Assembly (NCBI GenBank): GCA_016222905.1
Contig: JACRPZ010000036.1
Span: forward strand, 1 to 33,869
Direction: 5' to 3'
DNA: 33,869 bases
Source of the DNA: Nitrospirota bacterium
GTDB taxonomy: Bacteria; Nitrospirota; Thermodesulfovibrionia; UBA6902
This document shows positions 2,989 to 13,901 of this stretch, one piece after another (positions within the stretch are counted from its first letter, which is position 1; each line of letters starts with the position of its first letter). Made by a program: the position numbers and the translations under genes. The notes beneath the pieces were generated by a model. The model searched no databases. It saw nothing but the letters and a program-made list of their open reading frames with translations, and had not been told where the DNA came from.

Positions 2989-4710
2989 ATGTCTAAAATC
3001 TCCATTCTTCCCGATATTCTCATAAACAAGATAGCAGCGGGTGAAGTCATCGAGAGGCCTGCGTCAGTTGTGAGGGAATTGCTCGATAATGCCATAGACG
3101 CCGGTGCTGCACATATTGAAATTGAAATTTTGCACGGCGGGAAAAAACTGATGAAGGTATCTGATAATGGCTGCGGCATGAGCAGGGATGATGCCCTGCT
3201 CTGTTTTGAAAGGCACGCAACAAGCAAGATAAGATCAGAGGAAGACCTCTTCAACATAACCTCACTCGGCTTCAGGGGAGAGGCGCTTGCCGCTATAGCT
3301 TCAGTTTCAAAGATAACACTGGCCACATTCGCTGCCGGTTCCGGCGCGGGAACAAAGATAGAGATCGGCGTTGATCATAAAAAAGAGACATCAGACGCGC
3401 CGCCCTCCGCAGGCACAACCATTGAAGTGCGGGATATCTTTTACAACACACCGGCGAGAAGAAAGTTTTTAAAAAGTAATCCTACAGAGCTTTCCCATAT
3501 CATTGAAACCGTTATGCAGAAGGCGTTTGCCTATCCGGAGATCGGATTTATCCTCACTCACAATAACGGTGAACTTGTGAATGCCCCGTCTGCCGCGACG
3601 CTTGAAGAGAGGTTTGCCCAGCTTTACGGAGAAGAACTGGCGGAAGAGTTTATCAGAGTCGGTATAGAGGAACGAGGGATGAAGATCTACGGATTTGTCT
3701 CCAAGCCCGACTTCACGCGAGCGGGACGGAGCCAACAGGTTATATTTGTAAATAAACGCCCTGTGAAAAATTCTACAGTCAATCACGCGATATACAGCGC
3801 TTATGATACGCTGATAGCAAGAGACAGACACCCTGCCTATTTCCTCTTTCTCGATATTGACGGAACGAAGGTTGATGTAAATGTTCATCCGGCAAAGCGC
3901 GAGGTGAGGTTTGAAAAGCCTGATGAAATTCACAGGATGGCCAGGGCAGTTGTTTATAAAGCATTAAATCCCGGCGCTGATCTAAGCATGATGACATCTG
4001 AAATCTCTTACTCAGGATTCCGAAACACGCCGGTACATTTCCCGGTCTCATTCGATAATCCTGTTGTAAACGAGCAGTCAGCAGGTATCTTTCCAGTTTC
4101 GCAGACGGACATCTTTTCTTCAGGCTTTGCACAGAATGTGCAGCCGTTTTTTTACGTCGGTGAGTCATTCTTTGCAACAGTTACAAATGACGGATTGCTA
4201 ATTATAGATCAGCACGCTGCGCATGAAAGAATACATTACGAAAAGTTCCTCAAAAAGACCTCTATTGAAACCGAGCCGCTCTTTCTCCCTCTGAGAATAG
4301 AACTGCCGGTCAAGGAGTACAAGCTTGTATTACATCATAAGGATCTCCTCAACAGTCTCGGACTTGATATTGAGGATTTCGGCGGGAATAATGTTATCGT
4401 CAGGTCCCTTCCTAAAGAACTATCAAAGGCTGACATGAAAGGGCTTCTCATGGATGTTGCTGCTTGCATTTTGGAAGAAGAGACAAGCGGAATAAAAGAC
4501 ACGACCGAGGAATCGCTTCTGAAGAATATCGCGGCACGAATTGCGTGCCATAAGTCAGTCAGAGGAAGCGAACAGCTTACCAATGAAGAGCTTTCAAAAA
4601 TGATGTACGACCTTGATAAGTGCGACGAGCCAGGCAGATGCCCGCATGGACGTCCGACAAGGATTCATCTCACACTTGATGATCTGAGGAAGATGTTTAA
4701 AAGGAAATAA
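2989..4710 (+). CDS. mutL: DNA mismatch repair protein MutL, endonuclease type
   Basis: This 573-residue protein couples mismatch recognition by MutS to strand removal. The GHKL ATPase domain is complete: E30 and N34 in RELLDNAIDAGA, DNGCGM, the GFRGEAL lid, and the transducer motif FYNTPARRKFL. The C-terminal domain carries DQHAAHERIHYE at 407-418, which matches the DQHA(X)2E(X)4E metal-binding motif of nicking MutL proteins, and CPHGRPT near the end. It should therefore be a nicking MutL, as in bacteria without MutH. The motif position just before residue E32 of E. coli MutL is Asp here, a conservative change. Upstream genes are on the same strand 24 bases away. miaA and hfq, common downstream neighbours of mutL, are displaced 8 kb by a minus-strand island. 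Confidence 0.95.
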   Translation: MSKISILPDILINKIAAGEVIERPASVVRELLDNAIDAGAAHIEIEILHGGKKLMKVSDNGCGMSRDDALLCFERHATSKIRSEEDLFNITSLGFRGEALAAIASVSKITLATFAAGSGAGTKIEIGVDHKKETSDAPPSAGTTIEVRDIFYNTPARRKFLKSNPTELSHIIETVMQKAFAYPEIGFILTHNNGELVNAPSAATLEERFAQLYGEELAEEFIRVGIEERGMKIYGFVSKPDFTRAGRSQQVIFVNKRPVKNSTVNHAIYSAYDTLIARDRHPAYFLFLDIDGTKVDVNVHPAKREVRFEKPDEIHRMARAVVYKALNPGADLSMMTSEISYSGFRNTPVHFPVSFDNPVVNEQSAGIFPVSQTDIFSSGFAQNVQPFFYVGESFFATVTNDGLLIIDQHAAHERIHYEKFLKKTSIETEPLFLPLRIELPVKEYKLVLHHKDLLNSLGLDIEDFGGNNVIVRSLPKELSKADMKGLLMDVAACILEEETSGIKDTTEESLLKNIAARIACHKSVRGSEQLTNEELSKMMYDLDKCDEPGRCPHGRPTRIHLTLDDLRKMFKRK

Positions 4711-4732
4711 AAGAGGCAATATTTAATGCACT

Positions 4733-5350
4733 TCACTTAATCAATCCCTTTTCGACTATTACCATAGCCCCTAATTCGATTAGATTTCTATTGTGTTCTG
4801 CGTCAAAGGTTAATATAGTTTTGCCTTTCTCTATCAACTGCCTGCAAAGCCTTTCTGTTTTGCTGTCGGGTGCAGCGTGCGGGATTAAAATCTTGTCTGC
4901 TATTGCGGCAACAAATTGATTGCGAAATTCAGATCGTTGTGCTGAAATCCTGCTATTTTTTATGTCAAAAGGTGAAAGAAAAAGGAGCCGGCCTTCTTCA
5001 ATCGGCTTTTGATATTGCTTGTTTATCTTCATGCCTTCAATACTTCTGGCGGGACAAATTATTATGTTTTGTCTTCTTTTTAATAATATGTTTAAACATT
5101 CCTGTTCTATGGTTGAATGAAAGCCGCTTATGACTGTTTGAGAGGATTCTTTTAATTGACGCAAAAAGTCATAGGTTTTAAGAATAAGTTCACCGGGACA
5201 TTTGCTGGAGCAGAAGACGGCAAGTTTGTTTTCTTTAAGGAGATCAGGATTGCCGATAGCGGTTATAGCCTCTGGTGCATCTTTCTTGAAAACTTCTCTT
5301 AAAGCGGAAGGATAAAGTGCATCAGTCAGTTTTATAACAACAGGATTCAT
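4733..5350 (-). CDS. DprA/SLOG-like Rossmann protein linked to the defence island
   Basis: This 205-residue protein resembles DprA/Smf throughout. It has an early YPSALREVFKKDAP followed by GNPDLL, AVFCSSKCPG where DprA has VGSR, TVISGFHSTIEQECL where DprA has VSGLARGID, then EGRLLFLSPF, and FRNQFVAAIADKILIPHAA corresponding to the RNRIIAGLS block, ending in LIELGAMVIV. It is shorter than housekeeping DprA (usually about 300 or more residues) and lacks the canonical GSR, RGID and C-terminal winged-helix features. Its ATG overlaps the stop of the XRE gene as ATGA, so the two are translationally coupled. SLOG-superfamily proteins are known from conflict systems as nucleotide sensors (established for the superfamily). 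A sensing or ligand-binding role here, rather than a role in natural transformation, is inference. Confidence 0.65.
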   Translation of the reverse strand: MNPVVIKLTDALYPSALREVFKKDAPEAITAIGNPDLLKENKLAVFCSSKCPGELILKTYDFLRQLKESSQTVISGFHSTIEQECLNILLKRRQNIIICPARSIEGMKINKQYQKPIEEGRLLFLSPFDIKNSRISAQRSEFRNQFVAAIADKILIPHAAPDSKTERLCRQLIEKGKTILTFDAEHNRNLIELGAMVIVEKGLIK

Positions 5351-5724
5351 TTCTTTTTGATCTTCTCTGCAAGGTTCTTCATCTCTTCCTCTGTCGGCTT
5401 CTGCCCGCGCAGTGTCCTGAAAAATGCCGGAAGCATCCTGACCGCCTCACTATCAGACATTATGTCTTTTGGAATTATCCCGCGGTCTGCTGCGGCAAGG
5501 TCAAAGAATGTGTACCAGTCATCACTGCCGTTTTTAATATCGAGCGCCTTCGCGTAACGTTCAAGAATATCGGTGTCTTGCGGCGGCGGCATTGCTCCGC
5601 GCTCAAGCCGGCTGATGTTGGCAGGGTCTGCGGAAGCTTTGAGACAGAATTCCCTGAGAGTTATTTTATTCTTTTTTCTCAAGAACTTAAAGAATTCACC
5701 AAATGTCCTATTTTCACCAACCAT
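5347..5724 (-). CDS. XRE-family helix-turn-helix transcriptional regulator
   Basis: The 125-residue protein has an N-terminal XRE/Cro-type DNA-binding domain at about residues 8-65, with FGEFFKFLRKKNKITLREFC, the turn ASADPANISRLERGAMPPP, and the closing LERYAKALDI. The C-terminal 60 residues are helical (IIPKDIMSDSEAVRMLPAFFR, then basic residues). It is preceded by a purine-rich ribosome binding site (GGGGGG, 8 bases before the ATG) and by inverted and direct repeats that are likely its own operator. It sits 69 bases after the methyltransferase stop and overlaps the DprA-like gene by 4 bases. It may act as control protein of the restriction-like locus or as repressor of its own pair. Confidence 0.8.
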   Translation of the reverse strand: MVGENRTFGEFFKFLRKKNKITLREFCLKASADPANISRLERGAMPPPQDTDILERYAKALDIKNGSDDWYTFFDLAAADRGIIPKDIMSDSEAVRMLPAFFRTLRGQKPTEEEMKNLAEKIKKK

Positions 5725-5741
5725 GCCTTATCCCCCCCTTT

Positions 5742-5797
5742 TTTGTAATAATTGTACTATTTGTACTACTATTACAAATTTATCAGGGTCTTGTCAA
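5742..5797 (-). promoter_or_regulatory. Promoter and operator-like repeats before the XRE gene
   Basis: On the minus strand a perfect -35 box TTGACA lies at 5797-5792, overlapping the methyltransferase stop codon. Possible -10 boxes follow but none is strong: TAATAG after 17 bases, or TACAAT further down. A 9-base inverted repeat, TTTGTAATA at 5742-5750 and TATTACAAA at 5770-5778, flanks two direct copies of TTGTACTA on the plus strand (5752-5759 and 5761-5768). This nested arrangement, in the 69-base gap before a helix-turn-helix gene, fits an autoregulatory operator. Confidence 0.45.
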
Positions 5798-8700
5798 GCC
5801 TCTTCTTCACTCTCCCGTCCCATGCGGTATTTGATGTCGTAGTTGATGATGAAATCCAGTTCCTCGTCTGTGAAGTCGTAGTGCTTTGCCAGTACGCGGT
5901 CGATTTCGTCGATGATGGGTTTGGATTTCTGAATCTTGAAGGACTGTGTTTCAGTCGTGCCGGTTTGCTTCTGCTGGCGAACCAGCATAGTGCTGTTCTT
6001 GTTGAGGTCTTTCAAATAGCGCTCGCCTATGGCTTGCATAACTGGATCGGCAAGTGTTGATTCGGGGAGCGGAAAATTCTGAACGTCAAAAGGGTTCAAG
6101 TGACGGACGTTTGATGTCACGGTATACCACCACCAAAACACGTCGCTGCTCAGAGCAGCGATTACGGGTCTTATATGCTCTTTCTTTGTCAAAGTGAACC
6201 ACGTTTCACGACTGCTATGACCTTTTTTGTTGTTCAAATTGAATGCCGGAGCAAAGTTGGTGAATACTTTCCAGTAAAGCCCACCGTCTGTCCGGTAGTA
6301 AACGCGGTGTTCTGATTTGCTGGTGAAGTGCTTCACGACTGTTTTGACAGCAAGGCACTTTTTGAGAATGTGCTGCTCTATTGGATCGCCAAGCTTTGGA
6401 ATCCAGCATGCCGGCCGCTTGCGAAGTACCTCGACATAGTTCAGCCGCTGCATCAGGCCGTCTCGGTCGTCGCTTGTCCATTTCTGATAGTTTGTTGAAA
6501 ACGTGTAGCCGTCTCCGGATGGGGCCACGATAAAAATGGTGAGCGCCCGATTGACGGTGTCGAAAAGTTTCGCAGGACGCCAAGCATAATTGGCATACCA
6601 AGCGCTTCGGTTTGCCTCCAACAATTTTTGCACGACCTCCATGCGCTGAGTCGACGGCAGCGAGAGAGGAACAATCATGCTCATACAGCCGCTCTTGTGT
6701 AAAAGGTGCTCGCTTCGTTCCATGCACATGGCATGGATCGCTCCACTGTCGATGCAGGTGTAGTTTTTCAGCGCATAATCAACTTCGCGGAATTCAAGAT
6801 ATGGCGGATTACCAATAATTACGTCAAATCCACCATTTTTTAAAATCCCATAAAACTCTATAAACCAATGAAAGGGCTGATGGGACTTAAGCCATTTTTC
6901 ATATGCTGTCTTTTTCCTAGAATCAACGCCATATTCATTCGCAAGATAGGTATTAAGTTCGTCTTCTAAAACTTTAAGACGCTTACGAAGCTCCTGCTTA
7001 TCTTCAGGAGTAACCTCACCGCCTAATGCTGTCTGTTGTTGATGAAAGATTTTAAACAGACGGTCAACGTCCTGTGCTTTCTCCTCGATAGCCGGTAGTG
7101 ATTGCAGGCTTATGAGGTCGCTTTGTAAGGTTTGCTTCAATTCCTCATACGTCGCAAAGCCGACAAGTGTATTGCCTGCGCGTATATTGAAATCAATATC
7201 TGGTAGTGGCTCTATTCGCTCAGGGCTGTCAATCTGAGCAACGAGTTTCAGGAACAGCCTCAGCTTGCAGATTTCAATAGCCTCCTCCATAATGTCAACA
7301 CCGTATAGGTTGTTGACGATTATAGACTTGTAGATAAAGTATTTGGGATTGGGATGTTCCTCGACGCGAGCCAAAATCTTTTTGAAATCGCCGTATTTGT
7401 CTGAACGATGTTTCTCTTTTGAAAGTTCCAGATCATCAAGAAAGACTTGCATCCGGTCAAGACATCCCTCGTAAAGCGGCTCCAGGATACTCAACGCGGC
7501 AAAAAGGAATGCACCCGATCCGCATGTAGGATCAAGCACAGTGACATTCTCAATGGCATGATAGAATGCCCTTAGAAGTTCCGGCCCCTCTGAGTTCCAT
7601 ATCACATCCTGCGCAAACTGCCTTATATCGAGATTGTATGTGATAAGATCATTGATAGAACGGATCTCGCATTTCTGCATCCTGGTTTTAACTTCATCAT
7701 ATCTCTGCCGCCTTGCCACAACCTCTCTCCAGATCTCAGTCGGCAACGCATATTCTGAGGGAGCAGGCTTGTTCCATCCGGTCCGTTTTGAAACATCTTT
7801 GATGCCGACTGCTATATTCTCAGGTATTTCAAGCTCCACCCCTTTTTTTACAGCATTATAGATATAACGGTCAGGTTCAGATTGAAGCAGCTTCCAGACG
7901 GACTGCTCTCCTTCAAAAGCGATCTTGCATTTCTTCTTCGCTTCATCAAAGAGAAACGGGATGACGGTGTTCTTGCTGATATATTCGGTAATGTCCTCTT
8001 TTGTGTAATATGCTCCCATCTGTTTCTGATTGATGTATTTCTCAAATATATAGCCGAGCACATCAGGATTGATCTCATCATCTTTTCTTAATGCCCTTTC
8101 ATCAAGATGCCATTGATACTGGTCAAAAAAGTCAAAGAGCTTCTCAAAGGCCTTATCCGCTATTTCGATTTGTTTTCCGTGAAGCTCCTCGATCTGATGT
8201 TTCAGGAACAATCCGCCATTCAGATAAGGCACTTCTCCAAGAAGTTGCTTCATCTTTACTGAACGGTCGGTCTCTTTCTTTGCAAAGCCTTCAAAAAAGA
8301 GCTGGCAGAGGATATTTTTATAGAAGAGGTCTTTTCCCTGCTTCCCGCTTTGGAGCAGCTTGTTTCTCAGGTAATTGTCATCGCTGTCAAGAAATCCCTT
8401 TTTCTGAATAAAGTATATGAACATAAGACGGTTGAGCATGACTGATGCGTACCACTTGTGAAGCTCATCATCAGGTATGCCTTCAATGAATTTGAGAAAG
8501 GCATCATGCTCTGTCTTGAACCTGTCGTAGAATTTCTTTGTTACGCGTTCAACATCAAAGGCTGATTTTGCACGGCCGGTAACATCAACGATGGTTATCT
8601 TTTCTTCTTCATCAAGTGTTACAGCCAAATTCTGGAGTTTCTGAATGAGGGAATCACCGGGCTGGTTCTGATGGTACGTGTGCTCACGGCATGCAGCAGG

Positions 8701-9030
8701 TTTGCCTGACTCTCTCTTTACCCACTGCCATATCTGGGTTGTTTTGTCCTCGTTAATATAAATAATGATATGTTCATGAACGGATTTAGCGGTAAGCTTT
8801 TCGATCTTCCTTCTTGTGCCATAGTCAGGAATTCTCCCATTTTTCAGAGAAGGGCAGAGAAAGGCGGCCATGCCTTTCTTTTCAGCAATTGCAGAAAGGG
8901 TAAATGACTTTCCGTCAACAGATATCTCAAGCTTTTTGTCATAATGATCCCATCCGAGTTCTTCTATGAAGATCGTCTTGAAATCGAATTCCTGCAGAAG
9001 ATTTCGGACTCTTGCGATATCAAGGTTCAT
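5794..9030 (-). CDS. Eco57I-like adenine-specific DNA methyltransferase (PglX / type IIG related)
   Basis: This is a 1078-residue protein. The N-terminal about 200 residues (LGWDHYDKKLEISVDG, IPDYGTRRKIEK, HIIIYINEDKTTQIWQW) belong to the region found before the methylase core in large Eco57I-type proteins, which in type IIG enzymes can be a nuclease; no clear catalytic set could be assigned. A helical segment follows (VERVTKKFYDRFK, VMLNRLMFIYFIQKKGFL). The methylase core has the SAM-binding DPTCGSGAF at 500-508 and the catalytic NPPY at 741-744, indicating N6-adenine methylation. The last about 330 residues form the probable target recognition domain; the DNA for it is more GC-rich than the rest of the gene. 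The start codon overlaps the old stop of the DUF1016 gene. It probably protects host DNA or marks it for the helicase partner. Confidence 0.88.
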   Translation of the reverse strand: MNLDIARVRNLLQEFDFKTIFIEELGWDHYDKKLEISVDGKSFTLSAIAEKKGMAAFLCPSLKNGRIPDYGTRRKIEKLTAKSVHEHIIIYINEDKTTQIWQWVKRESGKPAACREHTYHQNQPGDSLIQKLQNLAVTLDEEEKITIVDVTGRAKSAFDVERVTKKFYDRFKTEHDAFLKFIEGIPDDELHKWYASVMLNRLMFIYFIQKKGFLDSDDNYLRNKLLQSGKQGKDLFYKNILCQLFFEGFAKKETDRSVKMKQLLGEVPYLNGGLFLKHQIEELHGKQIEIADKAFEKLFDFFDQYQWHLDERALRKDDEINPDVLGYIFEKYINQKQMGAYYTKEDITEYISKNTVIPFLFDEAKKKCKIAFEGEQSVWKLLQSEPDRYIYNAVKKGVELEIPENIAVGIKDVSKRTGWNKPAPSEYALPTEIWREVVARRQRYDEVKTRMQKCEIRSINDLITYNLDIRQFAQDVIWNSEGPELLRAFYHAIENVTVLDPTCGSGAFLFAALSILEPLYEGCLDRMQVFLDDLELSKEKHRSDKYGDFKKILARVEEHPNPKYFIYKSIIVNNLYGVDIMEEAIEICKLRLFLKLVAQIDSPERIEPLPDIDFNIRAGNTLVGFATYEELKQTLQSDLISLQSLPAIEEKAQDVDRLFKIFHQQQTALGGEVTPEDKQELRKRLKVLEDELNTYLANEYGVDSRKKTAYEKWLKSHQPFHWFIEFYGILKNGGFDVIIGNPPYLEFREVDYALKNYTCIDSGAIHAMCMERSEHLLHKSGCMSMIVPLSLPSTQRMEVVQKLLEANRSAWYANYAWRPAKLFDTVNRALTIFIVAPSGDGYTFSTNYQKWTSDDRDGLMQRLNYVEVLRKRPACWIPKLGDPIEQHILKKCLAVKTVVKHFTSKSEHRVYYRTDGGLYWKVFTNFAPAFNLNNKKGHSSRETWFTLTKKEHIRPVIAALSSDVFWWWYTVTSNVRHLNPFDVQNFPLPESTLADPVMQAIGERYLKDLNKNSTMLVRQQKQTGTTETQSFKIQKSKPIIDEIDRVLAKHYDFTDEELDFIINYDIKYRMGRESEEEA

Positions 9031-9488
9031 TCTTTAGCTTCTTCCCTGTTTTTCTTTCCGAAATTTGTTCGCGAGCCATACGCACCGCCTCATGCAGTTT
9101 CTTTTCAAGCTGTTTTTTAGGCAATGCTTCTCAATTGTCGTATCAGTGATACGACAATCTTCTCGTCATGGTATATCTCTGCAAACTGAATCATTCGACG
9201 AAGATTCTTCTCTGCAAATCCGTTGCCGTATTCAATGCTCAATTGTCTTCCTAGTGATGAGACAATCTGCGCTCCGTATTCCGCCCGATCTCTTTGTAGT
9301 ATCTCCTGATAAATACGCTTTCCGACTTTCCAGTAAAGCATTGTCAGTCCGGCGTTTACGGTAACAGCAACTGCCAATCGTGCTTCTTCAATCATGCTGC
9401 GGACATCCTTAAAAAGCGCGCCGGTTTTTGCCGGCTCTTTTCCCGCAGAAGTTGTTAATGCTTTGCTTTTATTTTTTGTTTTTTTCAT
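9020..9488 (-). pseudogene. DUF1016 (YhcG-type PDDEXK nuclease), internally deleted and frameshifted
   Basis: Translation from the ATG at 9488-9486, which overlaps the helicase stop as ATGA, gives the typical DUF1016 N-terminal domain: ARLAVAVTVNAGLTMLYWKVG, YGAQIVSSLGRQLSIEYGNGF, then NLRRMIQFAEIYHDEKIV. It stops at 9117, after about 120 residues. Full-length family members have roughly 340 or more and carry the nuclease at the C-terminus. In another frame, 9130-9020, the DNA reads EALPKKQLEKKLHEAVRMAR and on to NEP and a stop. That matches the usual last 35 residues of the family (a LPxxxLLExKLHEAxxxAR motif). The middle, including the PDDEXK active site, is gone. The remnant stop overlaps the methyltransferase start, showing the original coupled operon. 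The nuclease should be dead; the N-terminal domain could still be made. Confidence 0.75.
9134..9158. repeat. Perfect 12-bp inverted repeat with 1-base spacer at the DUF1016 junction
   Basis: The plus strand reads ATTGTCGTATCA, then G, then TGATACGACAAT. Arms of 12 bases with a single-base spacer are very unlikely by chance in a window of this size. It encodes the last family-like residues (IVVSLIRQL) before the deletion junction. A related imperfect copy lies at about 9232-9267, where the protein has IVSSLGRQL; over the aligned 34 bases 28 match, with one 3-base gap. Confidence 0.7.
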
Positions 9489-12400
9489 TTTTTTAGTCCC
9501 ATTGAACATATTATCCTCGGCTCCTGTGACTGCTCCTCTTCGTGGATTACGCAGAGACGGCCGTTCTCATGAAGAGATACTACAAGCCTGGCAAGCCCCT
9601 CATCAGAGATACCCGCCCGCAATTGCCTGTTGAGTGTATCAACGGCTATCTGTCTGAGAGTGTGCCTGTAAATATCATTAACCGCCTTTTCAACTGAACT
9701 TAAGAATTCTTCTGTAATAAAAAGGTCTCTATGATCTCCTATGTCCCGAAGATACTGTTTGAGTCGTTCATAAGTTCGGAAGCGGGCGCCGGATGGACTT
9801 CCAAGCTGGCCGCCAATTAGTTTCTCCTCCTGCATTATAAGCTCAACGCCCTTTTGAACAAGCTCATGATGTTTTTCATCACGGGGAATCACGGGAGTAT
9901 CAGGCAGGCATTCAGCAGTCTTGAGAATAGCGAACTGGGATTCTGTCACACTCTTGCCTTCTTTATTTACCCATGTCAAAGCGTTATTGCCATCAGCCGT
10001 GCGCATATAGACAAGCACACCTTCAGGGGCTTTTTCTGTGCCTTCATGAGAACGCGTGGAATATACAACGGGCTGAAGAGCCGGGATGGTCTTTTCCAGC
10101 TCAGGGTTTTGAGTAATTGCATTTTTCCATATCTGATAAGCGTATGAAGCAAGATCGACCTCTCCGTCAGCATCACCATCCATAATTCCAGCCTTTTCAT
10201 TATAAAGAGCGAGCACGAGATGGTCATTATTGTCATCTTCAAAAAAGGCCTCATCAGTCCCTACGACCTCGGCATTTTCCTGAAGTCTCATACGGACACG
10301 AGAGCGCAGTCTTATAATACGCTCTACTCCTTCTGCTGGGAGAAATGAATAACAGATAATGTTTTCAGCCTGCTGCCCGATACGGTCAACACGGCCAGCA
10401 CGCTGGATCAGCCTTATAATCGCCCACGGCAGGTCATAATTAACAACAATAGAGCAGTCCTGAAGGTTCTGCCCTTCGCTAAGAACATCGGTAGCTATAA
10501 GTATACGAAGCTCATCATCAGGTTTAATTACATCTTCCTTTTCATTGCTTTTTGGACTGAAGCGCCACGCATATCCTGTCGGGTCTTCTGAGTCGCCTGA
10601 TACGCCTGCAAGTTCAGATATGCCACAGTCTTTCAGCTTCGCTTCAAGATAACGCACAGTATCGGCAAACTGACTGAATACAATTATTTTATCTTTTGGA
10701 TGCCTCTTTGAAATCAGGTCATAAAGCGCATTTAGTTTGGCATCCTTTTCAGCATCCCATTCGCCGCACTTTTTAAGGGCAGAAATAAGGGCTGTTATAT
10801 CCTTTCTCAGGTCATCGGCAAGAACTTTTTGAAAGAGCGATGACTTTAACCACCTGAAACGTTTCTTATATTTTGTCTCATAAACCCTATATAGCTCAGA
10901 AGCGCGTTTTTTAAACTCCTCTTCAGAATTAACATCATTCTCAGGGATATCTTCTTCAGATTCATCTTCATCCTCAGAATCTAAAAGGCTGAAAAAAGTG
11001 TCTTCATCACTGTAACGAGTATCCATCATTTCCGGGTCCTGTGTGCCGATTGGAAGTGGTTTGCCGTTCTCAATCGCATAAAGGAAAATATAGTTGCGCA
11101 GTATAAGCCTTTCAAGGGAGAGGATGAAGGCACTGCCGCTGCTTTCAAGGCGTTTAAAAAGATTTGTGCGGCAGAAACCCATAAGCCGCTTTCCAGCTCG
11201 TGACAAGTCCTGAAGTATTGCAGCCTCTGTCTGTGCAGGAGGCTCATGCGGGGTCTCATGAATATAGTTTGCAAGGCCATACCGGGGCAGGCTGAGGCTG
11301 TTAATGATCTCTATAATCTCAGTAGAGTAAAGCCGCGCGTACTGGTCATTAGGATTACTGTCATCAATCTTGAAAGTAACAGTCTTGGGAACCCTGAGGG
11401 GGAAATATGATCTTGAACCATCCTCAAACGTAAGAAACTTACGCCCTGTTTCAGTGTCAGTTTCAGCATAGTTGTCTTGAATGAAGCTTCGTGTGCGCCG
11501 TACAAGATAAAGACGCATGAGCTCTCTCCAGTCATCAGGATAATCACTCTTTTCAAAGGCTGAAAGAGAACGAGGCGGAACCTGAAGCCTGAGAAACTCT
11601 AACTCGCCCATTTCACGAATCTTTCTCTCTGGCCTAATTCCAATATCCTTATCATCCTGAACAAATAACCTGAGCTGATTTGAGAGGTCAAGATAATTCT
11701 TGTTATAGGGCGTTGCTGAAAGGAGAATACACTTGCTTTCATTCACCTGTATGTAGTCACGTATAGCTTTGTACCTCTTTCCCTCGCGGTTTCTTAGGTT
11801 ATGACTTTCATCTATGATGATCAGCCGGTATCTCCGTAATCCGTCAGGCCCAGGCAATTCTTTCATAGCACGCGTGACAGAAAGAACTTTTCCTCTCATA
11901 CGGTATTTATGAACGTAGTCTTCCCACATCTTAACAAGATTTTTTGGACAGATTATAAGTGTTTCCAGCCCATGATCATCCTCAAATATACGCGCAAGCG
12001 CAGTCGCCATAAGAGTTTTGCCTAAACCAACAACATCACCGATAAGAACTCCCCCGCGTTTGTTCAGATGATGAGCTGCGATCTTTACGGCTGCAGTCTG
12101 AAACTCAAAAAGCTTCTTCCCGAAATCCTTAGGGATGTTGAATTCGAGAAGGCCTGACCGGGCTTCTTCGGCAAGGTGATACGCCATCTTTATATAAATG
12201 TGATATGGGGGAATCAGCTCTTCACCCGCCCAGCTCTCTTCGATGATCTGGACCAATTCTTTAGAGATATCCAGGCACCATCTGTCATTCCATCTGTCTT
12301 CAAACCACTTCGCCAGTTTATTGCAGGCATCATGATCTAAAACATCTATATTTAGTTCACCTTGATTGGAAAGTCCGGAGAAAGTTAGATTGCTGCTTCC

Positions 12401-12874
12401 AAGATATCCGATAGTCGGATTGATGGGGTCAGGTCGAAAAAGAAGATAAAGTTTGGCATGCAGCTGGTGTTTGAGAAAAAGCTTGACCACAACTTTATTT
12501 GCCTTTATCTGTTTAGCTAACCTGCGAAGACCGGCTTCATCTTCATTTGTAGGAATCCCGATTGTAAGCTGAGTGCGAAATTCTTCGGCAAGCTTCTTCT
12601 TTATTCGAACGGCGGTCTGATTGTCGATCTTGGTATCTGATCTTATTAGGCTGAACGCTTCGTGAAGCTCTTCCTGCGGAAGCTTCTGCATACCGACAAG
12701 AAGCCTGCAGCAATTTTCTTCGCCGCCAGACCATTTGTCTATATATGCATCAAGCTGTTTCCATCCCCGAAGATTAAAATAACCGACACAAAAATCAGCA
12801 CGTTCAGATACATTGATAGTTTCCTGTAAAGCAGGTAATAACTTTGCGTCAATGTTGTCGAAGATGCGCGGCAT
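9485..12874 (-). CDS. SNF2-family helicase with N-terminal PLD-type nuclease domain
   Basis: This is a 1129-residue protein. Residues 1-230 form a phospholipase D-type domain with a single HxK motif, H139-A-K141, followed by GSSN ending at N162; such domains dimerise to make one nuclease site. The SNF2/superfamily 2 motor follows: GDVVGLGKT with K286, DESH at 355-358, LLSATPYN, then after a long charged insert (with an acidic run about 630-650) VFSQFADTVRYLEAKL, ILIATDVLSEGQNLQ and QRAGRVDRIGQ. All motor motifs appear intact. It should move along double-stranded DNA and cut through the PLD site. It is first in the minus-strand operon, with the DUF1016 gene and the methyltransferase after it. 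Architecture and neighbours suggest the restriction half of a modification-dependent defence locus. DISARM DrmD is also SNF2-like but lacks this PLD part as far as I recall. Confidence 0.9.
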   Translation of the reverse strand: MPRIFDNIDAKLLPALQETINVSERADFCVGYFNLRGWKQLDAYIDKWSGGEENCCRLLVGMQKLPQEELHEAFSLIRSDTKIDNQTAVRIKKKLAEEFRTQLTIGIPTNEDEAGLRRLAKQIKANKVVVKLFLKHQLHAKLYLLFRPDPINPTIGYLGSSNLTFSGLSNQGELNIDVLDHDACNKLAKWFEDRWNDRWCLDISKELVQIIEESWAGEELIPPYHIYIKMAYHLAEEARSGLLEFNIPKDFGKKLFEFQTAAVKIAAHHLNKRGGVLIGDVVGLGKTLMATALARIFEDDHGLETLIICPKNLVKMWEDYVHKYRMRGKVLSVTRAMKELPGPDGLRRYRLIIIDESHNLRNREGKRYKAIRDYIQVNESKCILLSATPYNKNYLDLSNQLRLFVQDDKDIGIRPERKIREMGELEFLRLQVPPRSLSAFEKSDYPDDWRELMRLYLVRRTRSFIQDNYAETDTETGRKFLTFEDGSRSYFPLRVPKTVTFKIDDSNPNDQYARLYSTEIIEIINSLSLPRYGLANYIHETPHEPPAQTEAAILQDLSRAGKRLMGFCRTNLFKRLESSGSAFILSLERLILRNYIFLYAIENGKPLPIGTQDPEMMDTRYSDEDTFFSLLDSEDEDESEEDIPENDVNSEEEFKKRASELYRVYETKYKKRFRWLKSSLFQKVLADDLRKDITALISALKKCGEWDAEKDAKLNALYDLISKRHPKDKIIVFSQFADTVRYLEAKLKDCGISELAGVSGDSEDPTGYAWRFSPKSNEKEDVIKPDDELRILIATDVLSEGQNLQDCSIVVNYDLPWAIIRLIQRAGRVDRIGQQAENIICYSFLPAEGVERIIRLRSRVRMRLQENAEVVGTDEAFFEDDNNDHLVLALYNEKAGIMDGDADGEVDLASYAYQIWKNAITQNPELEKTIPALQPVVYSTRSHEGTEKAPEGVLVYMRTADGNNALTWVNKEGKSVTESQFAILKTAECLPDTPVIPRDEKHHELVQKGVELIMQEEKLIGGQLGSPSGARFRTYERLKQYLRDIGDHRDLFITEEFLSSVEKAVNDIYRHTLRQIAVDTLNRQLRAGISDEGLARLVVSLHENGRLCVIHEEEQSQEPRIICSMGLKK

Positions 12875-12912
12875 ATCTTAATTTTCCTTAATAGCCACAA
12901 TAATAATGCCCT

Positions 12913-12940
12913 ATTATACAGAATTTCATGCCTATTGAAA
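12913..12940 (-). promoter_or_regulatory. Candidate promoter of the defence operon
   Basis: On the minus strand a perfect -10 box TATAAT lies at 12918-12913. TTTCAA at 12940-12935, with a 16-base spacer, is a weak -35. The transcript would start about 30 bases before the helicase ATG, where AAGGAAAA can serve as ribosome binding site. A 10-base palindrome, ACAAATTTGT (12942-12951), abuts the -35 and faces the miaA promoter region on the other strand. It shares ACAAATTT with the repeats before the XRE gene, so common control is possible but unproven. Confidence 0.45.
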
Positions 12941-12971
12941 TACAAATTTGTTATTCTAATTCGTGGTTTCT

Positions 12972-13901
12972 ATGAACAACACCGTCATCATTCTACTCGG
13001 CCCCACAGCCGTCGGCAAGACTGGCGTATCGATCCTTCTTGCAAAGGCGCTTAAGACAGAGATCATCAGCGCGGATTCGATGCAGATTTACAGGCATATG
13101 GACATCGGCACTGCAAAACCGTCTCCTACTGAACTCAGTGAAGTACCCCACCACCTGATTAACATCCTGTCACCGGATGAATCATTCAGCGCGGGACTTT
13201 TCAGGGATAAAGCTGTTAAGTTCATCAATGAGCTTCATAAAAAAAATAAAATCCCTCTGATAGTCGGCGGGACAGGACTATATATCAAAACTCTTACAAG
13301 AGGGTTATTTGAAGGGCCATCCGCGGACTGGAAGATGAGGGATGAATTAATGGCAGCGGAGCATTCATGCGGCAAAGGTCATCTATACGAATATCTTAAA
13401 AGGCTTGACCCTGAGGCTGCAAAAAAGATAGAACCGAATGATGTGAGAAGGATCATCAGGGCGATTGAGGTATCGCTTAAAGATAACAGGATATCAGAGT
13501 TTCAAAAAAGCGCAACAACGCCTGAGCCGTATAATTTTATCAAGATAGGCCTCACGCGTGAGAGGAAAGAACTCTACCGGCTGATTGATGAACGGGTTGA
13601 GAAGATGATGCGGGATGGTTTGCTGGAAGAGACGGAGAGGCTCTTTAAACTGAACCCGTCAGCAACAGCTTTGCAGTCCCTCGGCTATAAAGAGATCGGC
13701 AGTTCTATTGCCGGAGAGGTATCTCTTGATGAAGCCGTTGAACTGATAAAAAGGCGGACGAGGAATTACGCAAAGAGGCAGATGACATGGTTCAGAAAAG
13801 AGCCTGATATAAACTGGGTTGATGTGTCAGGGATTACGGATGCGGATGGAATCCTTGCAAAAGTATTAAATGAGGTTGAAATTATAAAGAAATTGATTTA
13901 G
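12972..13901 (+). CDS. miaA: tRNA dimethylallyltransferase MiaA
   Basis: MiaA adds a dimethylallyl group to N6 of A37 in tRNAs reading UNN codons. This 309-residue copy starts MNNTVIILLGPTAVGKT, with the P-loop GPTAVGKT, then SADSMQIYRHMDIGTAKP (tRNA and DMAPP site), VPHHLINILSPDESFSAG, VGGTGLYIKTL and, near the end, RRTRNYAKRQMTWFRKE. All are hallmark motifs. The frame is open three codons further to a GTG at 12963, but the ATG at 12972 fits the family start better. hfq follows after 67 bases, as in many bacteria. mutL, usually immediately upstream, is 8 kb away across the defence island. Confidence 0.95.
   Translation: MNNTVIILLGPTAVGKTGVSILLAKALKTEIISADSMQIYRHMDIGTAKPSPTELSEVPHHLINILSPDESFSAGLFRDKAVKFINELHKKNKIPLIVGGTGLYIKTLTRGLFEGPSADWKMRDELMAAEHSCGKGHLYEYLKRLDPEAAKKIEPNDVRRIIRAIEVSLKDNRISEFQKSATTPEPYNFIKIGLTRERKELYRLIDERVEKMMRDGLLEETERLFKLNPSATALQSLGYKEIGSSIAGEVSLDEAVELIKRRTRNYAKRQMTWFRKEPDINWVDVSGITDADGILAKVLNEVEIIKKLI

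Follow-up and report, generated by a model that had tools for sequence, protein, structure and literature searches.

A recurring pair of PLD-SNF2 protein and Eco57I-type methyltransferase, probably an ATP-dependent restriction-modification system, in a Nitrospirota genome

What kind of system do five genes lodged between mutL and miaA in a Nitrospirota bacterium encode? The DNA analysed, referred to here as the window, is a stretch of 33,869 nucleotides (contig JACRPZ010000036.1 of assembly GCA_016222905.1, positions 1 to 33,869). An earlier reading of its letters, the original prediction, had described the block as an unnamed, restriction-like defence operon. We find that the mobile, conserved core of the block is two genes, a helicase (HEL) and a DNA methyltransferase (MT), and that the other three genes are accessory or dead. 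The two proteins probably form an ATP-dependent restriction-modification system, the most likely description being restriction-modification of the phospholipase D (PLD) type in a new arrangement, with accessory cargo. The features of the core are as follows (aa, amino acids).

9485..12874, minus strand: HEL, a 1129-aa PLD nuclease fused to an SNF2 motor, predicted translocase and endonuclease (Pfam, PADLOC, conservation)
12356..12460, minus strand: PLD active site of HEL, residues H139, K141, N162 and E173 (conservation)
10373..12040, minus strand: SNF2 motor of HEL, with Walker A GDVVGLGKT at 12040-12014, DESH box at 11812-11801 and motif VI QRAGRVDRIGQ at 10405-10373
5794..9030, minus strand: MT, a 1078-aa Eco57I-type N6-adenine methyltransferase, predicted to recognise the site and mark self (Pfam, PADLOC, motifs)
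5926..6795, minus strand: hypervariable target recognition region of MT, residues ~746-1035 (identity to near relatives)

The domains of HEL identified by Pfam are PLDc_2 and RE_NgoFVII, which make up the N-terminal PLD part, SNF2-rel_dom and Helicase_C. When 50 homologues were aligned, conservation was found to span the length of the protein. H139, N162 and E173 occur in all 50 and K141 in 49, and little or no variation is seen in the residues of Walker A, the DESH box and motif VI. The H-x-K...N...E pattern is that of the BfiI/NgoFVII-type PLD nucleases. Both the PLD motif (H139, K141, N162) and the full SNF2 motor reported in the original prediction are therefore present, and its proposal that one protein could translocate and cut is supported as a predicted function, the residues of both parts being intact. 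The Pfam scan returned no SRA domain and no other known modified-base reader in HEL. The top PADLOC model was C3a139 ('HKD+Snf2'; 175 bits in two stretches, the best covering 505-767 of 948), and HEL fell below every curated NCBIfam cut-off (142 of 1100 bits for phospholipD_antiphage, 131 of 610 for DrmD).

HEL is found well beyond the window. At E <= 1e-80 it was present in 16 of 296 Nitrospirota genomes, in 31 of 244 genomes from the phylum of a cyanobacterial locus and in 3 of 321 from the class of a betaproteobacterial locus. Further loci came from Acidobacteriota, Chloroflexi and Actinomycetota, and others from plasmids, including one from Thermococcus; none of the phage records searched contained HEL. 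Forty six loci were informative, having HEL in one piece and >=3 kb of sequence downstream. MT was present at 42 of these and lay directly downstream on the same strand at 40, whilst at L118 and L146 it lies upstream of HEL. The two proteins, whose joint occurrence the original prediction had left to be counted, do co-occur in other genomes: 13 of the 16 HEL-bearing Nitrospirota genomes contain MT, as against 18 of the 296 overall (hypergeometric p = 3e-16, a guide only as the genomes are related). At L060 and L066 a HEL 72-75% identical to that of the window is paired with a distant class of MT (mostly 39-45% identical). No named system for a PLD-SNF2 and Eco57I-type pair was found in the open-licence literature or profile libraries searched.

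An intact HEL stands beside a truncated or missing MT at L130 (genome G713) and L144. A host could bear such an arrangement if HEL does not cut on its own, as expected of a nuclease that needs the methyltransferase for recognition. These loci are weak support for MT-dependent cutting, since other methyltransferases could protect the host. At L057 the intact HEL is followed (388-2257) by short open reading frames (ORFs) that look, by eye, like the beginning of a type III Mod methyltransferase; MT was sought in the corresponding genome (G270) and not found.

MT matched the Pfam family Eco57I (3.7e-23) and, over its full length, the PADLOC model PDLC03628 REase_MTase_IIG (1047 bits, residues 1-1075), and contains the motifs LDPTCGSGAF (7536-7507) and NPPY (6810-6799). 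Residues 746-1035 share only 21-29% identity with four near relatives (L010, L058, L059, L062), whereas the remaining MT segments are 68-95% and the HELs 70-76% identical to those of the window. A variable region in MT set against a constant HEL marks the former as the carrier of an exchangeable recognition region and the latter as the constant effector. We rejected an active nuclease in the N-terminus of MT, as its only candidate motif lacks conservation (E50 in 20 of 37 homologues, K52 in 3 of 37). With the PLD and motor residues of HEL near-invariant, HEL is thus the sole intact predicted nuclease of the core. A degenerate PD-(D/E)XK core would be consistent with the secondary structure of MT residues 5-105, but this is a guess. 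Searching PDB folds with the MT model, itself a poor prediction, gave no match below 1e-3.

A plasmid relative gives a view of what MT may recognise. On pSYSX of Synechocystis PCC 6803 (L075) HEL is followed by a small gene, a gene for a VapC-family toxin, MT and, last, a DUF2513 gene; HEL is gene SGL_RS01585 there and MT is SGL_RS01600. Two DNA methyltransferase genes are listed for pSYSX, the HEL-linked MT homologue and a type I M subunit, in a gene table that is incomplete, with ~5 kb of the plasmid outside view. A count of locus tags from the copper-response genes suggests that the MT homologue is slr6050. M.Ssp6803V is slr6095 (PMC7296061) and M.Ssp6803IV is also located on pSYSX (PMC6604393); by elimination between the two listed genes, the MT homologue should therefore be M.Ssp6803IV. 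This enzyme marks GAm6AGGC, of which 99.6% is methylated (PMC7296061). Only one strand of the site can be marked, because the complement of GAAGGC contains no adenine, and one daughter site would consequently be left unmarked after replication, as is the situation for Type ISP and Type III enzymes. One-strand marking would favour a rule under which two sites are needed for cutting. Two further features of pSYSX are recorded here. Its HEL-VapC-MT genes are adjoined (L075:17924-20545) by an operon for ubiquitin-like conjugation (multiubiquitin protein, E2, ThiF-type E1 and DUF6527), followed by an HTH/ImmA-IrrE pair. The plasmid also appears to carry a duplicated block of >20 kb (L196, ~4-27 kb; L197, 58-82 kb) in which the protein accessions are the same; ArdA and a phospholipase D family protein are among its products.

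From these data we infer a complex of HEL and MT that translocates, cleaves and is blocked by methylation. The variable C-terminal region of MT would bind a short asymmetric site, at which MT would methylate adenine, in the best-studied relative on one strand only. On unmethylated incoming DNA, MT would recruit or license HEL, whose SNF2 motor would move along the duplex and whose PLD domain, expected to dimerise like those of SauUSI and NgoAVII, would cut, probably upon the meeting of two HEL-MT complexes. The overall mode would be that of a Type ISP or Type III enzyme divided in two, with a PLD nuclease replacing PD-(D/E)XK. DUF1016, dead in the window, and the XRE and DprA-like genes would be exchangeable accessory cargo, XRE probably repressing its own promoter. 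The label 'modification-dependent' given in the original prediction is wrong if Type IV was meant: the locus has a cognate methyltransferase whose recognition domain varies, and this suggests that modification by the system itself blocks its action.

How does this arrangement compare with known systems? Type ISP enzymes (LlaBIII, LlaGI) are single polypeptides with an Mrr-like nuclease and one-strand methylation. The window pair resembles them in having a motor, a nuclease, an N6-adenine methyltransferase and a recognition domain, but its functions are split over two genes and its nuclease is of the PLD type. MT matches the Type IIG model along its length; however, a Type IIG enzyme needs its nuclease in the same polypeptide, and with E50/K52 not conserved the nuclease here is probably HEL. 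Annotation tools would probably label this MT half of the pair. CglI and NgoAVII cleave DNA by means of a PLD nuclease powered by an SF2 ATPase, and no cutting occurs once the H of HxK is mutated (PMC4267653). They share with the window locus an RE_NgoFVII-group PLD with H-x-K, an SF2 ATPase, a methyltransferase and a short asymmetric site. However, their PLD and motor are separate proteins, accompanied by B3 and Z1 domains and a C5-cytosine methyltransferase (PMC4267653), whereas in the window PLD and motor are fused, the methyltransferase is of the adenine type and no B3 or Z1 Pfam match was found in the five proteins. SauUSI, in which PLD and SF2 lie in one dimeric chain, translocates and shreds DNA (PMC7913695). 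HEL has the same order of PLD and then SF2 motor in a single chain, but SauUSI reads 5-methylcytosine through an SRA domain, whilst HEL has no SRA match and is encoded alongside a methyltransferase. These precedents for ATP-dependent restriction by PLD and SF2 (CglI/NgoAVII, PMC4267653; SauUSI, PMC7913695) support our reading of the HEL-MT pair.

Among published architectures, the nearest is that of the Type-2 BREX-related system (BR-2, or Hma), which comprises an HKD-SNF2 helicase, an N6-methyltransferase, DUF499 and DUF3780 (PMC12839542). By Pfam, the window locus shares the HKD(PLD)-SNF2 helicase and the N6-methyltransferase. However, BR-2/Hma is defined by its DUF499 ATPase, and DUF499 (PF04465) is absent from the window's genome and from 18 of 21 HEL-bearing genomes; in the other three it lies elsewhere and never at the locus. 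DUF3780 had no Pfam match among the five proteins (no genome-wide search was made). PglZ (PF08665) is absent from the window's genome and from 27 of 28 HEL-bearing genomes, the single match being on another contig, and no ORF for a BrxC-type ATPase lies beside the five genes (locus ORFs only, with no genome-wide profile run). MZB/DUF1998 (PF09369), the mark of DrmB, is likewise absent from the window's genome, and the best match of HEL to the DrmA model of DISARM was 50 bits, no separate search for DrmA having been made. As PglZ, MZB/DUF1998 and DUF499 are missing from its genome, the locus does not fit BREX, DISARM or Hma/BREX-related systems, which bears out the original prediction that the operon fits neither BREX nor DISARM and extends it to Hma. 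An MZB/DUF1998 match was seen at one related locus (L062:15971-18193, genome G109), in a 740-aa ORF divergent from HEL.

Four other explanations were weighed against restriction by the HEL-MT pair. Under BREX-like exclusion, MT would mark self and HEL would block the replication or expression of unmarked DNA, with the PLD unused on such DNA. MT does resemble PglX/BrxX (NCBIfam BREX_1_MTaseX, 3e-18; BrxX in the PDB) and the motor region of HEL partly matches the DrmD and BrxH models, but non-use would not preserve the catalytic PLD residues near-invariant in 50 homologues, and neither PglZ nor DUF499 is found in the window's genome; we consider exclusion without cutting unlikely. It is very improbable that HEL is instead a Type IV enzyme cutting foreign-modified DNA, with MT a mere neighbour. 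The layout of SauUSI, PLD followed by SF2 motor in one chain (PMC7913695), speaks for this, yet linkage to the methyltransferase is near-constant and HEL lacks SRA or any other known reader of modified bases.

Conversely, MT might act as an orphan or in regulation, with HEL an independent defence protein and the two linked through defence-island clustering only. Three genomes (G179, G243, G279) do have MT and no HEL match, yet HEL fragments adjoin MT in each. The gene order, moreover, is tight across several phyla, and HEL remains well conserved as its MT partners diverge (as at L060 and L066), so that we regard an orphan MT as quite unlikely. Decay of the island to inactivity in the window's genome appears quite improbable also. 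The DUF1016 gene is a pseudogene and the IrrE-type peptidase of L002 is missing, but HEL, MT, XRE and the DprA-like gene are all intact ORFs, catalytic residues and the XRE operator are retained, and the parts lost belong to the exchangeable cargo.

Several points count against the HEL-MT pair as a restriction-modification system. HEL is broken at ~8 loci (L004, L006, L007, L008, L064, L070, L132, L136), indicating decay there. Structure predictions with AlphaFold2 were poor for HEL and MT (mean predicted local distance difference test, pLDDT, 39 and 45; alignments of 6 and 4 sequences). The assignment of the pSYSX homologue to M.Ssp6803IV was reached by elimination and not from a primary paper, and no restriction or phage assay on the pair was present in the open-licence literature searched. 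As a separate observation, several loci with a broken HEL keep a largely intact MT, the decay path expected of a restriction subunit.

The remaining features of the window concern the insertion as a whole and its cargo.

4711..12962, no strand: inserted block between mutL and miaA (flanks adjacent in five relatives)
2989-4710 and 12963-13901: flanking genes mutL and miaA, respectively
9117..9488, minus strand: N-terminal part of a DUF1016/YhcG pseudogene (DUF1016_N, 2e-27; longer ORF 9509-9117, ATGA-overlap start at 9488)
9020..9130, minus strand: C-terminal remnant of DUF1016 in another frame, ending over the MT start (alignment to the L010 protein)
5742..5797, minus strand: promoter-like TTGACA (from 5797) and palindromic operator (5778-5742) upstream of XRE (conserved in L002)
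5347..5724, minus strand: XRE, a 125-aa helix-turn-helix protein (HTH_3 at cut-off; PADLOC capH, 6.7e-6)
4733..5350, minus strand: DprA-like, a 205-aa DprA core, optional accessory (DNA_processg_A, 5e-15; PADLOC PsyrA, 1.9e-21)

Five minus-strand genes running from 12874 to 4733 fill the mutL-miaA gap exactly. The five-gene block was inserted as a unit, since in five relatives (G209, G867, G162, G864, G201) mutL and miaA are only 6-89 bp apart; direct repeats >7 bp were sought at its ends and none were found. The helicase stop overlaps the DUF1016 start and the XRE stop the DprA-like start, each through ATGA, and the DUF1016 remnant frame has its TGA stop just inside the methyltransferase start. 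All of the ORFs, positions and ATGA overlaps of the original prediction were recovered, with the domains confirmed by Pfam. Its compact restriction-like operon stands in so far as the locus is restriction-like and encodes a translocate-and-cut protein. It does not stand as a five-part machine: only HEL and MT recur widely, DUF1016 is dead, and XRE and DprA-like are optional.

Compared with the intact 367-aa DUF1016 protein of L010, the copy in the window keeps residues 1-119, has lost ~120-331 and has 332-362 in a different frame. The L010 protein contains a YhcG_C PD-(D/E)XK nuclease domain, nearly all of which is missing here; judged by this alignment, the window copy is a pseudogene that has lost its nuclease. 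Elsewhere, the position between HEL and MT is taken by an intact DUF1016 (L010), MNT-HepT (L062), a ParE-like toxin (L001) or a VapC pair (L075). The position after MT holds DarT-DarG (L069), RhuM (L065, and L005 by similarity), YhcG/DUF1016 (L062, L073), AbiJ_NTD4 (L140), a KAP NTPase (L059), an OLD-like protein (L061), AIPR (L063) or XRE, the latter alone in the window and with an IrrE peptidase in L002. The HEL-MT pair behaves as a platform with two exchangeable slots for toxin-antitoxin or nuclease cargo.

In L002 and L058 XRE is paired with an IrrE-type peptidase, which is missing in the window. The candidate XRE operator, GTAATA...TATTAC, has 13-bp arms that are perfect in L002 and contain 2 mismatches in the window, where it matched once, as against 0 matches in 100 shuffles. 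Because this conserved palindrome lies behind TTGACA upstream of xre and occurs once in the window, xre-dprA is probably its own autoregulated unit, with XRE repressing its own promoter. Control of the HEL promoter by XRE was not supported, the full operator being found only upstream of xre.

The DprA-like protein, a possible SLOG-type sensor in the original prediction, was rightly named there, as its core is of the DprA type: besides DNA_processg_A, its profile matches solved DprA structures (5mll, 4ljr, 3uqz) and, more weakly, ShosA (9vzo). It was found after MT behind varied cargo (XRE, XRE-IrrE, DarTG, YhcG, RhuM, AbiJ-like). The 296 genomes gave 20 strong matches, of which 9 are close to MT (co-occurrence p = 1e-7) and the others stand alone or beside SLFN_AlbA_2 genes. 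There is none at the cyanobacterial HEL loci and none in the plasmid records searched. We therefore rejected DprA-like as a constant component of the core, as it is absent from all cyanobacterial loci and often located elsewhere. Genes of the SLFN_AlbA_2/RecG-C type precede DprA-like at L185:10601-12262 and L192:2-1681, making them a second recurring partner, and gene ends resembling them precede it at L186 and L189.

DprA of H. pylori has opposite effects on a restriction enzyme, which it inhibits, and on a methyltransferase, which it stimulates (PMC4489622), and DprA homologues are antitoxins in shosTA and related systems (PMC9122126). The DprA-like gene matches both PsyrA and ShosA of PsyrTA and ShosTA, but the partner toxin is not beside it in the window, where Pfam identified no phosphoribosyltransferase and no other known ShosTA/PsyrTA partner toxin among the insertion proteins; nor is any of the insertion genes a Type I HsdS specificity subunit. 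By analogy with the published cases, DprA-like might act as a controller and link restriction to the toxin or nuclease cargo embedded in the locus, binding DNA that arises from attack or repair and either damping HEL or stimulating MT, or freeing the cargo toxin when restriction fails. We consider this role rather doubtful. If true, the locus would combine restriction-modification with an integral second line of defence that can be exchanged (DarTG, YhcG, RhuM, AbiJ-like, or XRE with or without the IrrE peptidase).

The HEL-MT pair recurs across many bacterial phyla, with HEL nearly always beside MT. A one-strand mark poses the problem of how self DNA that has just been replicated escapes the enzyme. 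Should the pair restrict, the plasmid copy in Synechocystis PCC 6803, for which the methylation motif is known, offers a ready test, and premethylation at the motif could become a practical aid to transformation.

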